From: Planctomycetota bacterium
Lineage (GTDB): Bacteria > Planctomycetota > Phycisphaerae > Phycisphaerales > UBA5793
DNA: 64,000 nt
NCBI GenBank assembly: GCA_963205185.1
Contig: CAUJHZ010000006.1
Coordinates: 1 to 64,000, forward strand
Reading direction: 5' to 3'
In this document: positions 5,198-56,274 of the stretch, in pieces
How positions within the stretch are numbered: the stretch's first letter is position 1
Layout of the letters: every line of letters begins with the position of its first letter
The notes under the pieces: generated by a model
Databases searched by the model: none
What the model was told of the DNA's origin: nothing
What the model saw: only the letters and a program-made list of their open reading frames with translations
Program-made: the position numbers and the translations under genes

Positions 5198-6085
5198 ATG
5201 CCAGGAGCCCTGATCGCCGCAGTCTGCATTTCGATTCTGCCGCACCTGGATCCGCCGGTGGAGGGCCAGGCACCGCGGCCGCCGCTGTCGGGGCCGGTCG
5301 TGGCGGCGAGCGCCAGCGCGGAATCCAAAACCCTTGTCCGCCGAGGCTTCAACGGCGAGGTTGAAGTGCTGCCGGTCGAAGCGGACGAGGCGGCCATCGA
5401 GCTGCTCGACCTTTCGCCTGAGCAGCGGCAGCAGTTCGAGCGGCTCAAGACGGAGCGGGGCGCCGTATTCAGCAAGGCGATCCGCGAGAACCTCGAAACG
5501 CTCATGAAGTTCGCAGGAGTGAATCCGAAAGAGCAGCCCGCGGAGTTCCTCGAACTCATGCGCACCATCGGGGAGGCGCTGAGCGAGTACCGCCAGCGCG
5601 GCACGATGCTGCACGAGATGGCGCAGGTGCTCGACACGGCGCAGCGGCGCGAGGTCCGCTCGCTCGTGGCAGAATACGTCAGGGCCCGCGCCGACGCGAT
5701 CCGCCGGCAAGCCGGCGGAGAACTGCCGGCGGGGGAGGTCATGATTCGGATGCATTTCGAAACGCTCGGCGAGATGGCCAAGGCGTCCATTGAGTCGGCC
5801 GTGGCGATGGGGTCGGCTGAGTTTGAGCTGATCGCGCAGCGCCTCAAACTGACGCCCGAGCAGAAGTCGAAGATTCAGAGAATCTTCGAGCCGATCGCGA
5901 TCCAGGAACTGCAGGGCAAGGCCGTTTCCCCAATGGCGAAAATCAGGGTCTTTTTCCAGGTGTCGAATCTGCTGACGGATGACCAGATGGAGGCGCTGGG
6001 CGAATACGTCCGCGAGGGGCGTGAGGCGCCCGCCGGTGTCGCCGCCGAAGAGCCCGCCGCCGCGCCGATGCGCCGGCGCAAGTGA
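5198..6085 (+). CDS. Exported helical protein with LTxxQ-type repeats
   Basis: 295 aa, highly charged and helical after a short hydrophobic N-terminus (ALIAAVCISILP). Three spaced motifs match the LTxxQ pattern of Spy/CpxP periplasmic chaperones: LSPEQRQQFERLK, LTPEQKSKIQRIF and LTDDQMEALGEY. A Spy-like envelope role is inferred from these motifs alone, and the protein is longer than Spy (about 140 aa in its mature form). The C-terminus is Ala/Pro-rich and ends in RRRK. The start is supported by AAGGAG 8 nt before ATG 5198. Confidence 0.75.
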   Translation: MPGALIAAVCISILPHLDPPVEGQAPRPPLSGPVVAASASAESKTLVRRGFNGEVEVLPVEADEAAIELLDLSPEQRQQFERLKTERGAVFSKAIRENLETLMKFAGVNPKEQPAEFLELMRTIGEALSEYRQRGTMLHEMAQVLDTAQRREVRSLVAEYVRARADAIRRQAGGELPAGEVMIRMHFETLGEMAKASIESAVAMGSAEFELIAQRLKLTPEQKSKIQRIFEPIAIQELQGKAVSPMAKIRVFFQVSNLLTDDQMEALGEYVREGREAPAGVAAEEPAAAPMRRRK

Positions 6086-50313: not shown

Positions 50314-51297
50314 ATGAATTTCGCACTGGCCCTCTCAGTCGCACTTTGCGCCACGCCCCTCACGCCCGAGCGGCTCTATTACCAGATCGACCGGGCCATG
50401 CCCATCAGCGTCGAGGCCGGCGAGAGCCGCGAACTGGCGCTGCTCAAGCCCGACAACACGCTCATCACGCGCGTCAACGTGCCCAACGACGCTGCGGCCG
50501 TCGATCTCAACGTGCTCATTCCCGATCTCTACTCAAACACCGAGGTGTGTTACCTGCAGCTGCTCGAGCGCGGCGAGCCGACCGGCGCTGCGCTGCTGCT
50601 CGAGCCGCTCGTCGAGCGGGCCAAGCCCGTGCTCCGCTACGGCGAGCGCGGCCCCGTGGTGGACAACTGGATGAGACCGAGCCCCGATCAGCTTTCGATG
50701 GCGGGCTTTCGCGTCTCCGTCGAGCGCGATGTCGTGCTCCACACGACCATGGGCGACATCCGGATGGTCATGCGGCCCGACATGGCGCCCAACTCGGCGT
50801 GGAACTTCACGAGCCTCGTCGACGGCGGCTTTTACACGCACATCCCTTTTCACCGCATCATCGGCAACACGCCCAGCGGCAAGGGATTTGTCATCCAGGC
50901 CGGCGATCCGACCGGCACCGGCACCGGCGGGCCGGGCTACAGCATCGATCTCGAACCCAGCACGCTGCCTCATGATCTCGGCGTCATCAGCATGGCGCGC
51001 GAAGGCGGCAGCGTCGATACCGGCGGCAGCCAGTTCTTCATCTGCCTCTCGCGCGAGATGACCGCCAGGCTCGATGGGCAGTACACCTCATTCGGCCAGA
51101 CGATCGAGGGGCTGGACGTAGTGGGCAAACTCGGCGCCGTGCCGACGGGCGCCGAAGACCGGCCGCTCACGATGCCTTACATCGAGACAGCCGAACTCGT
51201 GCCGGCGGCCCCGCGGTCGCCCGGCGTCAAGCCGAGTTGGATGGCCCAGAAGGCGGAGTCCAAGCCCGAGCCGCCGCCGGCGAATCCGCAGCGGTGA
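50314..51297 (+). CDS. Exported cyclophilin-type peptidyl-prolyl isomerase
   Basis: 327 aa. A short signal peptide (MNFALALSVALCATP) and a domain of about 130 residues with no clear family precede a cyclophilin domain. The active-site pattern is visible as YTHIPFHRIIGN, GFVIQAGDPTGTGTGGPGY and GSQFFICLSREM. The C-terminus is Pro-rich. It should assist protein folding outside the cytoplasm. The start is fixed by AAGGAGTTTGCA before ATG 50314. Confidence 0.88.
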   Translation: MNFALALSVALCATPLTPERLYYQIDRAMPISVEAGESRELALLKPDNTLITRVNVPNDAAAVDLNVLIPDLYSNTEVCYLQLLERGEPTGAALLLEPLVERAKPVLRYGERGPVVDNWMRPSPDQLSMAGFRVSVERDVVLHTTMGDIRMVMRPDMAPNSAWNFTSLVDGGFYTHIPFHRIIGNTPSGKGFVIQAGDPTGTGTGGPGYSIDLEPSTLPHDLGVISMAREGGSVDTGGSQFFICLSREMTARLDGQYTSFGQTIEGLDVVGKLGAVPTGAEDRPLTMPYIETAELVPAAPRSPGVKPSWMAQKAESKPEPPPANPQR

Positions 51298-51363
51298 GGC
51301 GCTGGCGGAGGCCCTGCCCATGCGGCAAGATGCAGGAAGTTCTGCTTTCCTGCGAATTGTCGC

Positions 51364-51392
51364 TTGCAGATCCGGCGCGCTTGTGGTAGAGT
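51364..51392 (+). promoter_or_regulatory. Promoter of the first propeller gene
   Basis: TTGCAG (51364-51369) and TAGAGT (51387-51392) are spaced 17 bp. The same layout precedes the genes at 53245 and 53717. Confidence 0.6.
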
Positions 51393-51402
51393 AAAGAGAC
51401 GA

Positions 51403-51448
51403 CCGCGGCGCTTCGGGATCGCAACGATCCCACAATACAGCGCCGTGG
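51403..51448 (+). ncRNA. Structured 5' leader of the first propeller gene
   Basis: An outer stem CCGCGGCGC/GCGCCGTGG encloses the hairpin GGGATC-GCAAC-GATCCC. A leader with the same layout and different paired bases precedes the paralogue at 53717. Function unknown; it may be part of the mRNA leader rather than a separate RNA. Confidence 0.4.
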
Positions 51449-51505
51449 ATGCCGCTCGCAGCCCCGCGAGCAGAACGACCTCGGTCGAAACCGAAGGAGA
51501 GCACC

Positions 51506-53023
51506 ATGTTGTCCATGCGCACGACGTTGCTTGGCATACTCGCTCTGATCGCCTCGCTGGCGCTCGCGACTTCCGCTTCCGGTCAGCCGTGCGCGCCGGA
51601 GTGGGATGTAGAATTCGGAACGAACGGAACGACCGCGACGATATGGGATTCAGCGGTCTATGACGGCGGTACGGGGCCGGCACTCTACGTCTGCGGCGCT
51701 GTGCTGGGTGAGATCGGCGGAGCGGTCGCGTGGGGCATCGCAAAATGGGATGGCGCGCGGTGGACCGATGTCGGAGGTGGCTTGTTTAGGAATGGCGAGG
51801 CTGGATTCGGAGCAACATTGTTTGTCTGGGACGACGGCCGCGGTCCGGCACTCTACGTGGGAGGTCGCTTTGATCACGCCGGAGATGTTCCCGTCGCGAA
51901 CGTTGCCCGTTGGGACGGCTCGCACTGGGAAGCCTTGGGCGAAGGCGTTGACGATGAGGCTCTCGAAATGTGCGCTTTCGATGACGGCCGCGGCCCGGCG
52001 CTGTTCGTAGGCGGCGGGTTTGATGTTGCGGGAGGGGAGCCGGCTGCGCATATCGCGCGTTGGGACGGCGTCAGCTGGGAACCGCTTGCCAGCGGACTGA
52101 TGGGTGGAAGCCGAGTCGTCGGAAGCATGACCGTGTTCGATGATGGTCGAGGGCCGGCCCTGTTCGTGGGAGGCGACTTTTACTCTGCCGGCGGCGTTCC
52201 CACGAACTACATCGCCCGTTGGGATGGGCACGAGTGGTCCGCGCTGGGAGGCGTTAATCTCTCTCGCGGGTGGCATTACGATACCATACTGGAAGAACTT
52301 GCTGTCTTCGATGATGGGAGTGGGCCCGCGCTGTTCATGTCAGGGAACTTCCAGCAAGTCGGCGTTGGCGAACTCTTCTTGAAGTGGGATGGCCAAAGCG
52401 TGAGCGCTCCGGCGGGGATCGTGTGGGACCTCAGTTATTATCCGGAGACCATGCTTGTCCACGACGATGGAGCGGGTCCGAGGCTCTGGTTGGCAGGCGG
52501 CCGCTTCGGGATTGGCGAGAGAACGAATTTCACGACCATCGCCAGGTGGGATGGAAAGACATGGACCAAGCCCTCGCACTATCCTTCCTATTGGATTTTC
52601 TCTCTTGACTTTTTCAATGATGGATTCGGCAACGATCTCTATGTCTTTGGATGGCTGAACTCCATTCTCCCGGACAATGTGCGCATAGCGAACCTCTCTC
52701 GATTGAGAGCTTCGCGCATGACTGTGTCGCACTCACCACTTCGAGCCAGTGAGCAGGCGTTGTTCGCCACGACCTGTGCCACGCCCGGCGGCCGGGTCTA
52801 CTTCACCTACAGCACGACGGGTCTGGGATCGTTCTTTGTGCCGCAACTGAATGTGACGCTTGATCTTGATGCGCCGCATCTCGCCGGCAGCGGGATCGCC
52901 GACCAGGACGGCAAGGCGGAGCTGATCCGCAGGATTCCGCCTGATGCCGCCGGCCGAACTGTCTATCTCCAGGCCGCCGAGCAGGGGCGCAAGAGCGAAG
53001 TAGTTGAAGCGGTCATTGAATAG
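51506..53023 (+). CDS. Secreted propeller-type repeat protein, copy 1
   Basis: 505 aa. A signal peptide (TTLLGILALIASLALATSAS) precedes about six kelch-like repeats with the core DDGRGPALYVGG ... ARWDGSHWEALG, consistent with a beta-propeller. The last 90 residues are the shared C-terminal module (GRVYFTYSTTGLGSFFVPQL to the end). It is presumably extracellular; ligand unknown. GAAGGAGAG lies before ATG 51506. It is closely related to the gene at 53717, with the 3' 235 bp nearly identical at DNA level. Confidence 0.85.
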   Translation: MLSMRTTLLGILALIASLALATSASGQPCAPEWDVEFGTNGTTATIWDSAVYDGGTGPALYVCGAVLGEIGGAVAWGIAKWDGARWTDVGGGLFRNGEAGFGATLFVWDDGRGPALYVGGRFDHAGDVPVANVARWDGSHWEALGEGVDDEALEMCAFDDGRGPALFVGGGFDVAGGEPAAHIARWDGVSWEPLASGLMGGSRVVGSMTVFDDGRGPALFVGGDFYSAGGVPTNYIARWDGHEWSALGGVNLSRGWHYDTILEELAVFDDGSGPALFMSGNFQQVGVGELFLKWDGQSVSAPAGIVWDLSYYPETMLVHDDGAGPRLWLAGGRFGIGERTNFTTIARWDGKTWTKPSHYPSYWIFSLDFFNDGFGNDLYVFGWLNSILPDNVRIANLSRLRASRMTVSHSPLRASEQALFATTCATPGGRVYFTYSTTGLGSFFVPQLNVTLDLDAPHLAGSGIADQDGKAELIRRIPPDAAGRTVYLQAAEQGRKSEVVEAVIE

Positions 53024-53082
53024 CCGCCTGCGGGCGCTGGATCGGCCTCTGGGTTAATTTTTGCCAACTTCCCGGATTTTGC

Positions 53083-53112
53083 TTGCAATCCCGGCGGGTT
53101 GCAGGTTATTCT
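53083..53112 (+). promoter_or_regulatory. Promoter of the remnant propeller gene
   Basis: TTGCAA (53083-53088) and TATTCT (53107-53112) are spaced 18 bp, at a position matching the promoters of the two intact paralogues. Confidence 0.45.
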
Positions 53113-53244
53113 GAACGCAGCCATTCGATTGCGCAGATTCGGGCACGCACAGGCCCGGGCGCAAGCCGGATGAAGTGCACCGGGAAATTGCCGCTCCGCC
53201 CGCGAGGCGGGCCGCGCGAACATCCTGCAAATTAGGAGGTTGCC

Positions 53245-53487
53245 ATGGCTTCCGTTCGACATGTTGCGCCAACGGCGATGGCCGCTCTTGTCGTGTTTGC
53301 TTACCGTCGCGTCAGCCGAGTCGCGCGCCCGGCTGCGTTGCGACGTTTGCTGGACAGGCGGTGCCGACAGGACCGTGTCAGCGCGGTGATCCGCAGGATT
53401 CCGCCTGATGCGGCCGGCCGGACCGTCTATCTCCAGGCCGCCGAGCAGGGTCGCAAGAGTGAGGTGATCGAATCCACAATCGAATAG
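53245..53487 (+). pseudogene. Decayed propeller-type gene (signal peptide and last 30 residues only)
   Basis: 80 codons. The start (AGGAGG before ATG 53245) and the beginning of a signal peptide resemble the copy at 53717. The frame then runs through nonsense-like Arg-rich sequence: the alternative frame reads LLTVASAES, which restores a normal signal peptide, so a frameshift is likely. The last 31 residues (RRIPPDAAGRTVYLQAAEQG and on) are the end of the shared module. All repeats are deleted. It still has a promoter-like sequence upstream and a terminator downstream. Confidence 0.75.
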
Positions 53488-53516
53488 CGTCAGCGCGACT
53501 CCCCCCGCGCGACGCA
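53485..53516 (+). repeat. 32-bp direct repeat after the remnant gene
   Basis: Identical to 55235-55266, starting in the stop codon region (TAGCGTCAGCGCGACTCC and on). It shows that the remnant and the gene at 53717 were duplicated together with 3' flank. Confidence 0.85.
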
Positions 53517-53521
53517 ACCAG

Positions 53522-53552
53522 ACCCCGGGTTTCACGACCCGGGGTTTGTTGT
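53522..53552 (+). terminator. Intrinsic terminator after the remnant gene
   Basis: A perfect 9-bp stem ACCCCGGGT/ACCCGGGGT with a 6-nt loop (53522-53545) is followed by TTGTTGT. Confidence 0.8.
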
Positions 53553-53571
53553 ACGTTCTGATGATTTGCCC

Positions 53572-53600
53572 TTGCAATCCACATCAGAATCTGTTAGACT
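53572..53600 (+). promoter_or_regulatory. Promoter of the second propeller gene
   Basis: TTGCAA (53572-53577) and TAGACT (53595-53600) are spaced 17 bp, 117 bp before ATG 53717. Confidence 0.6.
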
Positions 53601-53612
53601 GATGTGATAGCT

Positions 53613-53661
53613 CCACGAGCCGCGCGAGGTCGCAACGACCCGCCCGAAAGCCGCTCCGTGG
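53613..53661 (+). ncRNA. Structured 5' leader of the second propeller gene
   Basis: An outer stem CCACGAGC/GCTCCGTGG (one bulged C) encloses GGTC-GCAAC-GACC. The loop GCAAC is the same as in the leader at 51403-51448 while the paired bases differ in a compensating way. Confidence 0.4.
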
Positions 53662-53716
53662 CGCCGGCTTGCGCCCCGCGAGTCCGATGAAATCTCTCAC
53701 CGAATAGGAGGCTGGT

Positions 53717-55237
53717 ATGGCGTCCCTGCTTCGTCCATTCGTGTTATGTGCGGCAGCATGCGGCACACTCATGACACTTGTGCAAACCACATTCGCCCAA
53801 TTGTGTGAGCCAGGTTGGGACGAACACTTCAAAGGGACCGATACAGACGTGTCGGATTTGACAGAGTTCGACGATGGAACCGGAGCGGCGCTTTATATTG
53901 CAGGGCCTTTCATTGGCATGCAAGGCCAGAAAGCATGGGGTATCGCCAAGTGGGATGGGCACAAGTGGAGCGAAGTTGGAGGCGGACTTCGAAGAGGTGA
54001 GTCGCCGGGATACGGATATGCGCTTTCGGTCTGGGATGACGGGCGCGGACCGGCGCTGTACGTCGGTGGGTCCTTTTCATCTGCTGGAGGAGTTGTCGCA
54101 AGCAACGTGGCCCGCTGGGATGGTCAGCATTGGGAGCCGCTGGGCGTCGGCACAGATGACACGGTGTATTCTTTTGGCCAATTCGATGATGGACGTGGTC
54201 AAGCCCTCTACGTTGGTGGCCGGTTCGAACGTGCTGGCGACGTCGACGCGTTATCGATCGCGCGCTGGAATGGCGCGGAGTGGGAACCGCTTGAGAGCGG
54301 GCTTCCGAGCATCCCGCGTTGGTGGGGTGTGCGCACTATGACTGAATTTGATGATGGAACTGGTAATCGCCTGTACGTCGGGGGCGACTTCTACAGGAGC
54401 GATGCCGTCCGAACGCCTGGCGGCGGATTCCAGAAGGATCTTGCACGATGGGACGGGCGCGAATGGTCCAGCGTTCCCGGTGCTCCGCTGCGATCGCTGG
54501 GAGGTGGCTACGCGACCCATGTCGATCAATTGCTTGTGCACGACGATGGATTCGGCAAGGCTCTGTTCGTCACCGGGGGGTTTCTCACCCCGCTTGGCTC
54601 TCAGTGGGCAACCGGCTTCCTGCGATGGGATGGCACCAATTGGACGGTGCCTGGAGGTGGGTTCGTCCAAAGTTACTCGCACCCCGACGCAATGGCCGTA
54701 TTTGACAGCGGGAGTGGGCCACAACTTTGGATTGGGGGCGGTAGAGTCGGCTTGATCAATTCACGAGAATACGGCTACGTGTTCCGATGGAACGGTCTGG
54801 AGCTGACGCCAGTCAAACCGGACCCTAGGGCTTACTGGGTTAGCGTTCTGCGGCCTTTTAATGACGGCTATGGGCGGGCGATCTACTTGGGAGATGAGTA
54901 CTCGGCAGTTCTGCGCTGGACCGTCCCGCACATGGCGCTTGAGCACACGGCTCTTCGCGCCGGGCAACCCGCTCGGTTCACCACCACGTGCGCTACGCCT
55001 GGCGGCCCGGTCTACTTCACCTACAGCACCACGGGCCTGGGCTCGTTCTTTGTGCCGCAACTGAATGTGACGCTTGATCTCGATGCGCCGCATCTCGCCG
55101 GCAGCGGGATCGCCGACCAGGACGGCAAGGCCGAACTGATCCGCAGGATTCCGCCTGATGCCGCCGGCCGAACCGTCTATCTCCAGGCCGCCGAGCAGGG
55201 GCGCAAGAGCGAAGTGGTCGAAGCGATGATTGAGTAG
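53717..55237 (+). CDS. Secreted propeller-type repeat protein, copy 2
   Basis: 506 aa. A signal peptide (FVLCAAACGTLMTLVQTTFA) and the same repeat core as copy 1 (DDGRGPALYVGGSFSSAGG, ARWDGQHWEPLG) are followed by the shared C-terminal module. The repeat part differs at many residues from copy 1, whereas the module is almost identical. AGGAGG lies before ATG 53717. Terminated by the hairpin at 55273. Confidence 0.85.
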   Translation: MASLLRPFVLCAAACGTLMTLVQTTFAQLCEPGWDEHFKGTDTDVSDLTEFDDGTGAALYIAGPFIGMQGQKAWGIAKWDGHKWSEVGGGLRRGESPGYGYALSVWDDGRGPALYVGGSFSSAGGVVASNVARWDGQHWEPLGVGTDDTVYSFGQFDDGRGQALYVGGRFERAGDVDALSIARWNGAEWEPLESGLPSIPRWWGVRTMTEFDDGTGNRLYVGGDFYRSDAVRTPGGGFQKDLARWDGREWSSVPGAPLRSLGGGYATHVDQLLVHDDGFGKALFVTGGFLTPLGSQWATGFLRWDGTNWTVPGGGFVQSYSHPDAMAVFDSGSGPQLWIGGGRVGLINSREYGYVFRWNGLELTPVKPDPRAYWVSVLRPFNDGYGRAIYLGDEYSAVLRWTVPHMALEHTALRAGQPARFTTTCATPGGPVYFTYSTTGLGSFFVPQLNVTLDLDAPHLAGSGIADQDGKAELIRRIPPDAAGRTVYLQAAEQGRKSEVVEAMIE

Positions 55238-55266
55238 CGTCAGCGCGACTCCCCCCGCGCGACGCA
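55235..55266 (+). repeat. 32-bp direct repeat after the second propeller gene
   Basis: Identical to 53485-53516. Confidence 0.85.
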
Positions 55267-55272
55267 CCTCCA

Positions 55273-55298
55273 AGCCCCGGGTCTCCGGGCCCGGGGCT
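55273..55298 (+). terminator. GC-rich hairpin after the second propeller gene
   Basis: A perfect 9-bp stem AGCCCCGGG/CCCGGGGCT is followed by CCCTCTTC. The T content after it is low, so termination may be partial. Confidence 0.6.
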
Positions 55299-55379
55299 CC
55301 CTCTTCAAATCGCGGCACATCCGCCGGCACCGAGGCCGCCGCAGTTGGCCCGGCCTAATCAAGGTGCCGGGTACCTTTC

Positions 55380-56261
55380 TTACGGTCGCGCTGCATCCAC
55401 CGTGTTGCGCAGCAGCATGGCCACCGTCACCGGGCCCACGCCGCCGGGGACGGGGGAGATCCAGCCGGCCACCGCGCGGACCTCGTCGAACGACACGTCG
55501 CCGACAACGCGTTTCTTTCCGGTCGCCGGATCGACTGTCCGATTGATTCCCACGTCGATGACCACCGCTCCGGCCTTGACCATGTCTGCGGCGATCAGGC
55601 CCGCCTTGCCGGCCGCGACGACGAGCACATCCGCCTGCCGCGTCATGGCCGCCAGGTCTTGCGTGTACTTGTTGCAGCTGTGCACCGTCGCTTCGCGCTG
55701 CATCATCAGAATCGCCACGGGCTTGCCGACGATGTTGCTCGCGCCGACGCAGACCACTTCGCTGCCGCGCAGTTCGACGCCCGTCGAATCGACCATCTTC
55801 ATCACCGCCAGGGCCGTGCAGGGCACGAGCGATGAGCGGTCGTAGACGACGTTGCCGATGTTGGCGGGATTGACGCCCTCGACGTCCTTGGCCGGGTCGA
55901 TGAGAGACTGGACGCGATAAGGGTCGATGCCCTCGGGCAGGGGCATGTGGACCATGATGGCCGTGACGCGTTCTTCGGCGCTGAGCAGCAGCACCCGGCC
56001 GGCGATGTCCTCGTAGGTGGCCGTGTGCGGCAGGACGTGCAGGCGATACTCGATGCCCAGTTCGGCGCAGCCGGCTTTCTGGTTCTCGGCGTAGATGCGG
56101 GCGCTGCTCTTGGCGCCCGGCTCGCCATCGACGAGCACGGCGTCGAGCGAGACGGTCCGGCCGCGCGCTTTGAGCTGCTCGACATCGCGCCGGATTTCGG
56201 CGCGGAAGCGATCCGCCAGGGCCCGCCCGTCGATGATTTGTGCGCCGCCTGAGCCGCTCAT
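55380..56261 (-). CDS. folD: Methylenetetrahydrofolate dehydrogenase/cyclohydrolase
   Basis: 293 aa. The catalytic Lys is in the YAENQKAGCAELGI segment, and the NADP-binding VGASNIVGKP and the C-terminal ISPVPGGVGPVTVAMLLRNT signature are present. It interconverts 5,10-methylene-THF and 10-formyl-THF. ATG 56261 is preferred over 56270 because a TATCAT box ends 7 nt before it and there is no Shine-Dalgarno sequence at either. It is divergent from the aminotransferase gene with only 35 bp between starts. Confidence 0.93.
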   Translation of the reverse strand: MSGSGGAQIIDGRALADRFRAEIRRDVEQLKARGRTVSLDAVLVDGEPGAKSSARIYAENQKAGCAELGIEYRLHVLPHTATYEDIAGRVLLLSAEERVTAIMVHMPLPEGIDPYRVQSLIDPAKDVEGVNPANIGNVVYDRSSLVPCTALAVMKMVDSTGVELRGSEVVCVGASNIVGKPVAILMMQREATVHSCNKYTQDLAAMTRQADVLVVAAGKAGLIAADMVKAGAVVIDVGINRTVDPATGKKRVVGDVSFDEVRAVAGWISPVPGGVGPVTVAMLLRNTVDAARP

Positions 56262-56268
56262 CGCCGAC

Positions 56269-56274
56269 ATGATA
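56269..56274 (-). promoter_or_regulatory. -10 box, probably leaderless start of folD
   Basis: TATCAT on the minus strand ends 7 nt before ATG 56261. Confidence 0.4.

Follow-up and report, generated by a model that had tools for sequence, protein, structure and literature searches.

A probable folded leader RNA conserved upstream of propeller-like genes at one locus of a Phycisphaerales genus

An array of propeller-like genes in a Planctomycetota genome is preceded, at each of its three copies, by a pair of promoter-like boxes and, shortly downstream, by a nested stem-loop that is likely to represent a conserved folded leader. Across relatives of the same genus, its outer stem keeps its pairing while the letters of the arms change, and it surrounds a short, well-conserved hairpin.

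The propeller-like gene array

The window analysed here is the stretch of 64,000 nucleotides at positions 1-64000 of contig C6, in a genome of 4.55 Mb and 76 contigs. The array consists of two intact propeller-like genes with one truncated copy between them (Table 1), flanked on one side by a peptidyl-prolyl isomerase gene and on the other by a gene that we take to be folD-like. The best named relatives of the propeller protein come from Phycisphaeraceae and Phycisphaerales MAGs (36%–37% identity), five distant propeller relatives were found on named genome contigs, and a plasmid search with the propeller protein returned three distant Hymenobacter records. A DUF5122 beta-propeller match in Pfam falls just under the cut-off in copies 1 and 3, and the protein of copy 1 begins, by eye, with a signal-peptide-like stretch.

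Table 1. Features of the propeller-like array, with positions in the window
Feature	Position	Strand	Description
Peptidyl-prolyl isomerase gene	50314-51297		flanks the array
Promoter, copy 1	51364-51392	+	TTGCAG, 17 nt, TAGAGT
Leader, copy 1	51403-51448	+	outer stem 51403-51412 / 51439-51448 (10 pairs), 3' arm ending in CCGTGG (51448)
Inner hairpin, copy 1	51415-51431	+	GGGATC-GCAAC-GATCCC, loop GCAAC
Copy 1	51506-53023	+	propeller-like protein, 505 aa, with C-terminal beta-sandwich domain
C-terminal domain, copy 1	52715-53017		about 100 residues, predicted beta-sandwich
Promoter, copy 2	53083-53112	+	TTGCAA, 18 nt, TATTCT
Leader, copy 2	53122-53172	+	outer stem 53122-53127 / 53167-53172; second helix 53129-53134 / 53159-53164
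Inner hairpin, copy 2	53140-53157	+	loop CGCACA
Copy 2, truncated	53245-53487	+	N-terminal start fused to the last ~39 residues of the C-terminal domain; 80 codons
Promoter, copy 3	53572-53600	+	TTGCAA, 17 nt, TAGACT
Leader, copy 3	53613-53661	+	outer stem 53613-53617 / 53657-53661 plus inner pairs, 3' arm ending in CCGTGG (53661)
Inner hairpin, copy 3	53628-53640	+	GGTC-GCAAC-GACC, loop GCAAC
Copy 3	53717-55237	+	propeller-like protein, 506 aa, C-terminal domain as in copy 1
C-terminal domain, copy 3	54929-55231		about 100 residues, predicted beta-sandwich
Presumed folD-like gene	55380-56270	-	other flank of the array

Between the proteins of copies 1 and 3, identity is 46% in the propeller and 86% in the C-terminal domain; between those of genes A and B of a genus relative (G001), it is 47% and 72%, respectively. 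Because the C-terminal domains of neighbours are far more alike than their propellers, the sequences suggest gene conversion of the 3' ends. The truncated copy also occurs in another relative, G003 (L160, from about position 5831), where it lies after copy 3 and not before it as in the window, so the array has been rearranged.

The C-terminal domain was confidently predicted as a beta-sandwich (pLDDT 95.6). Pfam gave no match for 21 of its members, and the PDB gave weak, generic Ig-like matches, none with E ≤ 0.001. By manual count, the domain is covered by 79 of 92 genome matches, from which we estimate that about 75 genes of the genome carry it. Sampling of 294 genomes across the phylum found it in 26, and in family f62 six genomes have at least 15–16 copies each. 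The domain may serve exported proteins as a module for sorting or anchoring.

Promoter boxes and leaders in the window

A preliminary description of this DNA had placed TTGCA(A/G)-17/18-TA boxes before all three copies at the same distance from the start codon. All three pairs of boxes were seen, in the form TTGCA(A/G)-17/18-TANNNT; their spacing is comparable, and the claim of equality holds only approximately, with 113, 132, and 116 nt between the end of the -10 box and the ATG of copies 1, 2, and 3. Three of the four matches to TTGC[AG][AG]-N16-18-TANNNT on both strands of the window belong to the propeller copies. Genome-wide, a similar promoter pattern has 32 matches versus 42 for a reversed control; the boxes are therefore no enriched promoter type, and TTGCA-TANNNT as the general promoter of the genome, with stem-loops after it, was ruled out by the same counts. 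Thirty of the 32 sites were folded, and among the 27 outside the three copies 5 had z ≤ -1.5, a number equalled (5) by the windows upstream of those 27 sites. The presence of the boxes before all three copies reflects common descent and retention. A sigma-70 promoter (TTGACA-16/18-TATAAT, at 9/12) was not found in 51200-55400, and the TTGCAR and TANNNT boxes are at most a diverged sigma-70 form.

Hairpins with a GCAAC loop, inside outer stems ending in CCGTGG, were found before the two intact copies as originally described. The truncated middle copy, whose leader had gone unnoticed, likewise has a structured one, with a CGCACA loop that is also used by relatives. In the window copies, the outer arms lie 26–39 nt apart and the stem 55–72 nt from the ATG. 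Fold energies compared with shuffles gave z of -5.5 (copy 1), -2.4 (copy 3), and -3.1 (copy 2) when the stretch was trimmed to the stem, which biases the comparison towards the stem. Fixed 65-nt windows gave -4.6, -2.5, and -2.4, respectively, and for copy 3 the value shifted to -1.7 with 60 nt and to -1.1 with 70 nt. Longer stretches reaching to the ATG gave -3.7 for copy 1, -0.34 for copy 3, and -0.70 for copy 2. Taken individually, stem tests were significant only in copy 1 (p = 0.0035) and copy 2 (p = 0.015), with p = 0.07 for copy 3 and p = 0.82 for the leader of G002, a further genus relative. Four terminator-like sites were detected in 51200-55400, all within coding genes and none in the three window leaders. 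A pseudoknot between the loop GCAC and a downstream GUGC fits two or three of five leaders by eye and was dropped.

Leaders in relatives of the genus

Each of the four relatives that the searches found within the genus (G001 to G004) carries promoter and leader at the equivalent locus, where their propeller genes adjoin a gene that has, by eye, the C-terminal tail of the isomerase. Ten leaders are thereby available: the three of the window (own 1–3), three of G003 (1–3, in a different copy order), two of G001 (A and B), and those of G002 and G004. The TTGC box is kept in nine of the ten and lost in G001 B, and G003 1 has a weak -10 box, TGACTT, by our own assignment. An inner hairpin of the type TCGGGT(A)YGCACAG(G)CCCG is common to own 2, G003 2, G001 A and B, G002, and G004; the loop GCAAC occurs in own 1 and own 3, with a near form, GCAAT, in G003 3. 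The leader of G003 copy 1 (L160 2222-2380) has unrelated letters and the loop AAAG, and a strong nested stem-loop (z -4.1 to -5.1) stands 2 nt past its weak -10 box.

Counted from the end of the -10 box, the transcription start itself being a prediction, the stem begins after 2–11 nt in the trimmed folds of nine leaders and after 1–16 nt in 75-nt folds of all ten. Over the ten pairs of five leaders, identity reaches 82% in the inner hairpin and 77% in the -10 box, with 41.5% in the remaining leader; the inner hairpin stands out from its surroundings.

Conservation of pairing

The stems had been described as differing in letters yet still pairing, and this is borne out by double-sided changes and, at group level, by an arm swap, in which, among eight distinct leaders, every 5' flank of the inner hairpin was matched with every 3' flank. 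With hairpin borders set after the sequences were seen, and with G003 1 added after its hairpin was noticed, own arms sum to -153 kcal/mol versus a swapped mean of -122 kcal/mol (z -3.2, p = 0.0006). Exact permutation p values were 0.0003–0.0007 across six settings with all eight leaders, 0.002–0.005 when G003 1 was left out, and 0.06–0.07 for the five YGCACA-type leaders alone. The same procedure at 75 shifted positions (105–600 nt upstream or 90–690 nt downstream), which are not independent because they overlap, gave a mean z of -0.03 (sd 0.98), with none of the 75 as low as -3.2, three at p ≤ 0.05, and a smallest p of 0.019.

In a sequence-only alignment of four leaders, which were chosen because they aligned well and amount to about three independent lines since own 2 and G003 2 are nearly identical, all 24 of 24 outer-stem cells are paired. 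Three of the six outer-stem pairs are changed on both sides (C-G to G-C, A-U to G-C, and U-A to A-U), a number reached in 28 of 500 shuffles, and sliding the partner by 1–3 columns lowers whole-structure pairing from 93% to 16%–59%; the inner hairpin has no doubly changed pair in this alignment. Further leaders with covariation are present at the locus in four genus relatives; the lack of such matches, which the preliminary description had named as evidence against itself, was not observed. Plain MAFFT alignment of the eight leaders followed by RNAalifold misaligned the outer stems and recovered the inner hairpin alone, and a second alignment, of re-trimmed stretches, brought no improvement.

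Fold energy is good in own 1, own 2, own 3, G003 1, and G003 2 and weak or absent in G001, G002, and G004 (z in fixed 65-nt windows +0.7 for G002, +0.4 for G004, -0.6 for G001 B, and -0.8 for G001 A). As a group, the leaders fold lower than 116 background windows (p = 0.019), for which the mean z is itself -0.3 to -0.4. Folds extended to the ATG, which bear on masking of the ribosome site, differ between leaders: the outer stem is kept in four of eight (own 1, own 3, G001 A, and G004), and other folds are formed in the remaining four (own 2, G003 3, G001 B, and G002). These extended folds slightly lower our confidence in a conserved folded leader.

Distribution of the element

The preliminary description had proposed, as a check, a covariance model from two leaders with a genome search. 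Built here from four aligned leaders and run in 101 genomes with stricter filters, the model found five sites in genus genomes, all at the propeller locus with E of 2.5e-9 or better, and, in a search that was not exhaustive, no believable site beyond the propeller locus of this genus. The fifth leader, G001 B, was found by the model itself (E = 2.5e-9, whole genome); its letters also resemble those of G001 A, and its outer stem includes two non-standard pairs. Leaders related to that of copy 2 were detected by the model in G001 (two), G003, and G004. The G002 leader was missed in the 101-genome search, reached 14 bits in separate scoring, and was recognised by motif, and copies 1 and 3 were not detected by the model, which derives from YGCACA-type leaders. 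One weak match outside the genus (G014) reads by eye as a sulfatase gene.

The inner-hairpin motif occurs seven times in five genus genomes, six times in these leaders, and a match in G001 (C38) was recognised by eye as a ferredoxin gene. Among 296 genomes in the order, 32 by manual count contain TCGGGN{1,3}GCACAGN{0,1}CCCG, and 34 contain its reversed control. None of 30 motif matches outside the genus has promoter-like boxes upstream, 29 of the 30 lie inside an open frame of at least 150 aa, and the motif there behaves like chance. Within the genome studied, copies 1 and 3 are each preceded by the GCAAC form (pattern TCGCAACGA..CCGTGG) and copy 2 by the GCACAG form, and neither form has any other occurrence there. 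As these forms were found only before propeller copies, a leader common to all genes with the C-terminal domain was ruled out.

Among 60 upstream stretches, nine of the 58 that do not belong to copies 1 and 3 match a loose TTG[CA][AGC]-N16-20-TANNN(T/A) pattern, in four of the nine at 90–177 nt before the listed ATG (L041, L048, L059, and L089); only L048, L059, L060, and L063 were read further. At L059 (G000 C52, minus strand), which belongs to another gene family, TTGCAA-17-TTATCTT lies 133 nt before the ATG, and a G+C-rich hairpin unrelated to the propeller leader follows directly after the -10 box. The leader was not seen by eye in the upstream regions of L095 and L096, two distant propeller relatives.

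In a search of the window with Rfam 15, only two tRNAs reached the gathering cut-off, and permissive settings over 51290-53730 gave a best score of 17.1 bits, with 46.7 needed. What had first been called a cis-regulatory RNA that could not be named is supported as a conserved folded leader without an Rfam match; regulation, in the sense of a response to a signal, is only plausible. In these searches, the element is restricted to one locus of one genus. Given that matches are confined to the genus locus, that the motif is chance-like, and that Rfam offers no family, it appears to be young or fast-evolving and tied to the propeller gene family.

Possible function of the leader

Promoter retention, pairing kept despite letter change, a conserved inner hairpin, and restriction to one locus and genus are computed results. 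As their best explanation we tentatively propose a 5'-proximal stem-loop that protects the mRNA. Each propeller gene would be transcribed from its own TTGC...TANNNT promoter, with a message predicted, from how such promoters work, to start about 6–8 nt past the -10 box. The transcript would soon enter a two-part stem-loop, in which an outer stem of 5–10 pairs, its letters free to change, would enclose a short hairpin rich in G+C, whose conserved loop is YGCACA in one set and GCAAC in the other. Such a stem-loop might slow decay from the 5' end and would prevent the leader and the ribosome site from pairing, and the outcome would be a message with a long lifetime, encoding a secreted and perhaps abundant protein. 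The proposal fits because the element lies just past the promoter, its stem letters are free, and a terminator is absent. A terminator-based switch is unlikely given that the three window leaders lack a terminator-like site; the leader would be equally well explained as a constitutive element of stability or translation.

The conserved letters of the loop exceed the needs of a protective stem, and for these letters a binding partner is the better explanation; the two are not mutually exclusive. That the leader is primarily a recognition site, its YGCACA/GCAAC loop being read by an RNA-binding protein or small RNA that co-regulates the propeller genes post-transcriptionally, is possible and, on balance, unlikely. 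No part of the leader is more conserved than the loop and its closing pairs, and an outer stem that retains pairing and not letters is the pattern expected of a presented loop, but two loop classes and the unrelated AAAG of G003 copy 1 occur within one gene family, and no further site appeared in the genus in a model search that was non-exhaustive and missed the G002 leader. We consider it improbable that a genus-specific RNA-binding protein or small RNA switches the duplicated surface propeller genes together, with the loop classes marking separately controlled paralogues.

A DNA operator, in which a dimeric transcription factor would bind the inner inverted repeat downstream of the promoter and act as a roadblock, is more improbable still. 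Although the hairpins form short near-palindromes, similarly placed downstream of the -10 box, with the promoter conserved alongside, the outer arms keep an RNA-type complementarity with double-sided changes that an operator does not need, and the half-sites differ among copies. We find it very doubtful that the leader has no function and reflects only the residual similarity of tandem duplicates and the folding tendency of G+C-rich DNA. In favour of this reading, all copies stem from a single locus, even background windows have slightly lower fold energies than their shuffles, four leaders show no folding advantage over background, and half of the eight refold when extended to the ATG; however, at about 41.5% identity outside promoter and hairpin, the arms as a group still pair specifically with their own partners. 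Least probable is a riboswitch, thermometer, or attenuator answering a ligand or condition, which would suit the 5' leader position and the nested helices but not a small element before one gene family in one genus, without an Rfam match, without a terminator-like site in the window leaders, and with a loop core that looks too short for a ligand pocket.

Comparison with known systems

Read as a protective stem-loop, the propeller leader resembles the 5'-terminal stabilising stem-loops of ompA, papA, and aprE in lying well upstream of the ribosome site, near the predicted 5' end of a message for an exported protein, and in an outer stem that keeps pairing and not letters. It differs from them in its conserved inner loop and in its phylum, and its start and stability effect are predictions made here. 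Stabilising 5' stem-loops are discussed in PMC7509114 and cited in PMC3997798. The lineage-specific structured RNA motifs of PMC2864571, which were identified by comparative genomics, share with the propeller leader a conserved hairpin, double-sided changes, and a position upstream of related genes, whereas the propeller leader is far narrower, at one locus in one genus; Rhodopirellula-1, from Planctomycetes, is listed in that paper, marked as ambiguous ("?") as an RNA. The rne autoregulatory hairpin (PMC3997798, PMC7509114) is likewise a hairpin with conserved letters in a 5' leader, but any binding partner of the propeller leader is hypothetical. An open-access literature search returned no leader RNA of such kind for this bacterial group.

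Implications

The arm-swap test can lend support to a conserved stem where leaders are too diverged for ordinary alignment, and, because eight distinct natural variants exist, the leader is directly testable with a reporter. The propeller messages probably have in this leader a genuine element of control or stabilisation, small and locally restricted; if the leader merely stabilises the mRNA, it would be an ordinary feature in a little-studied group.
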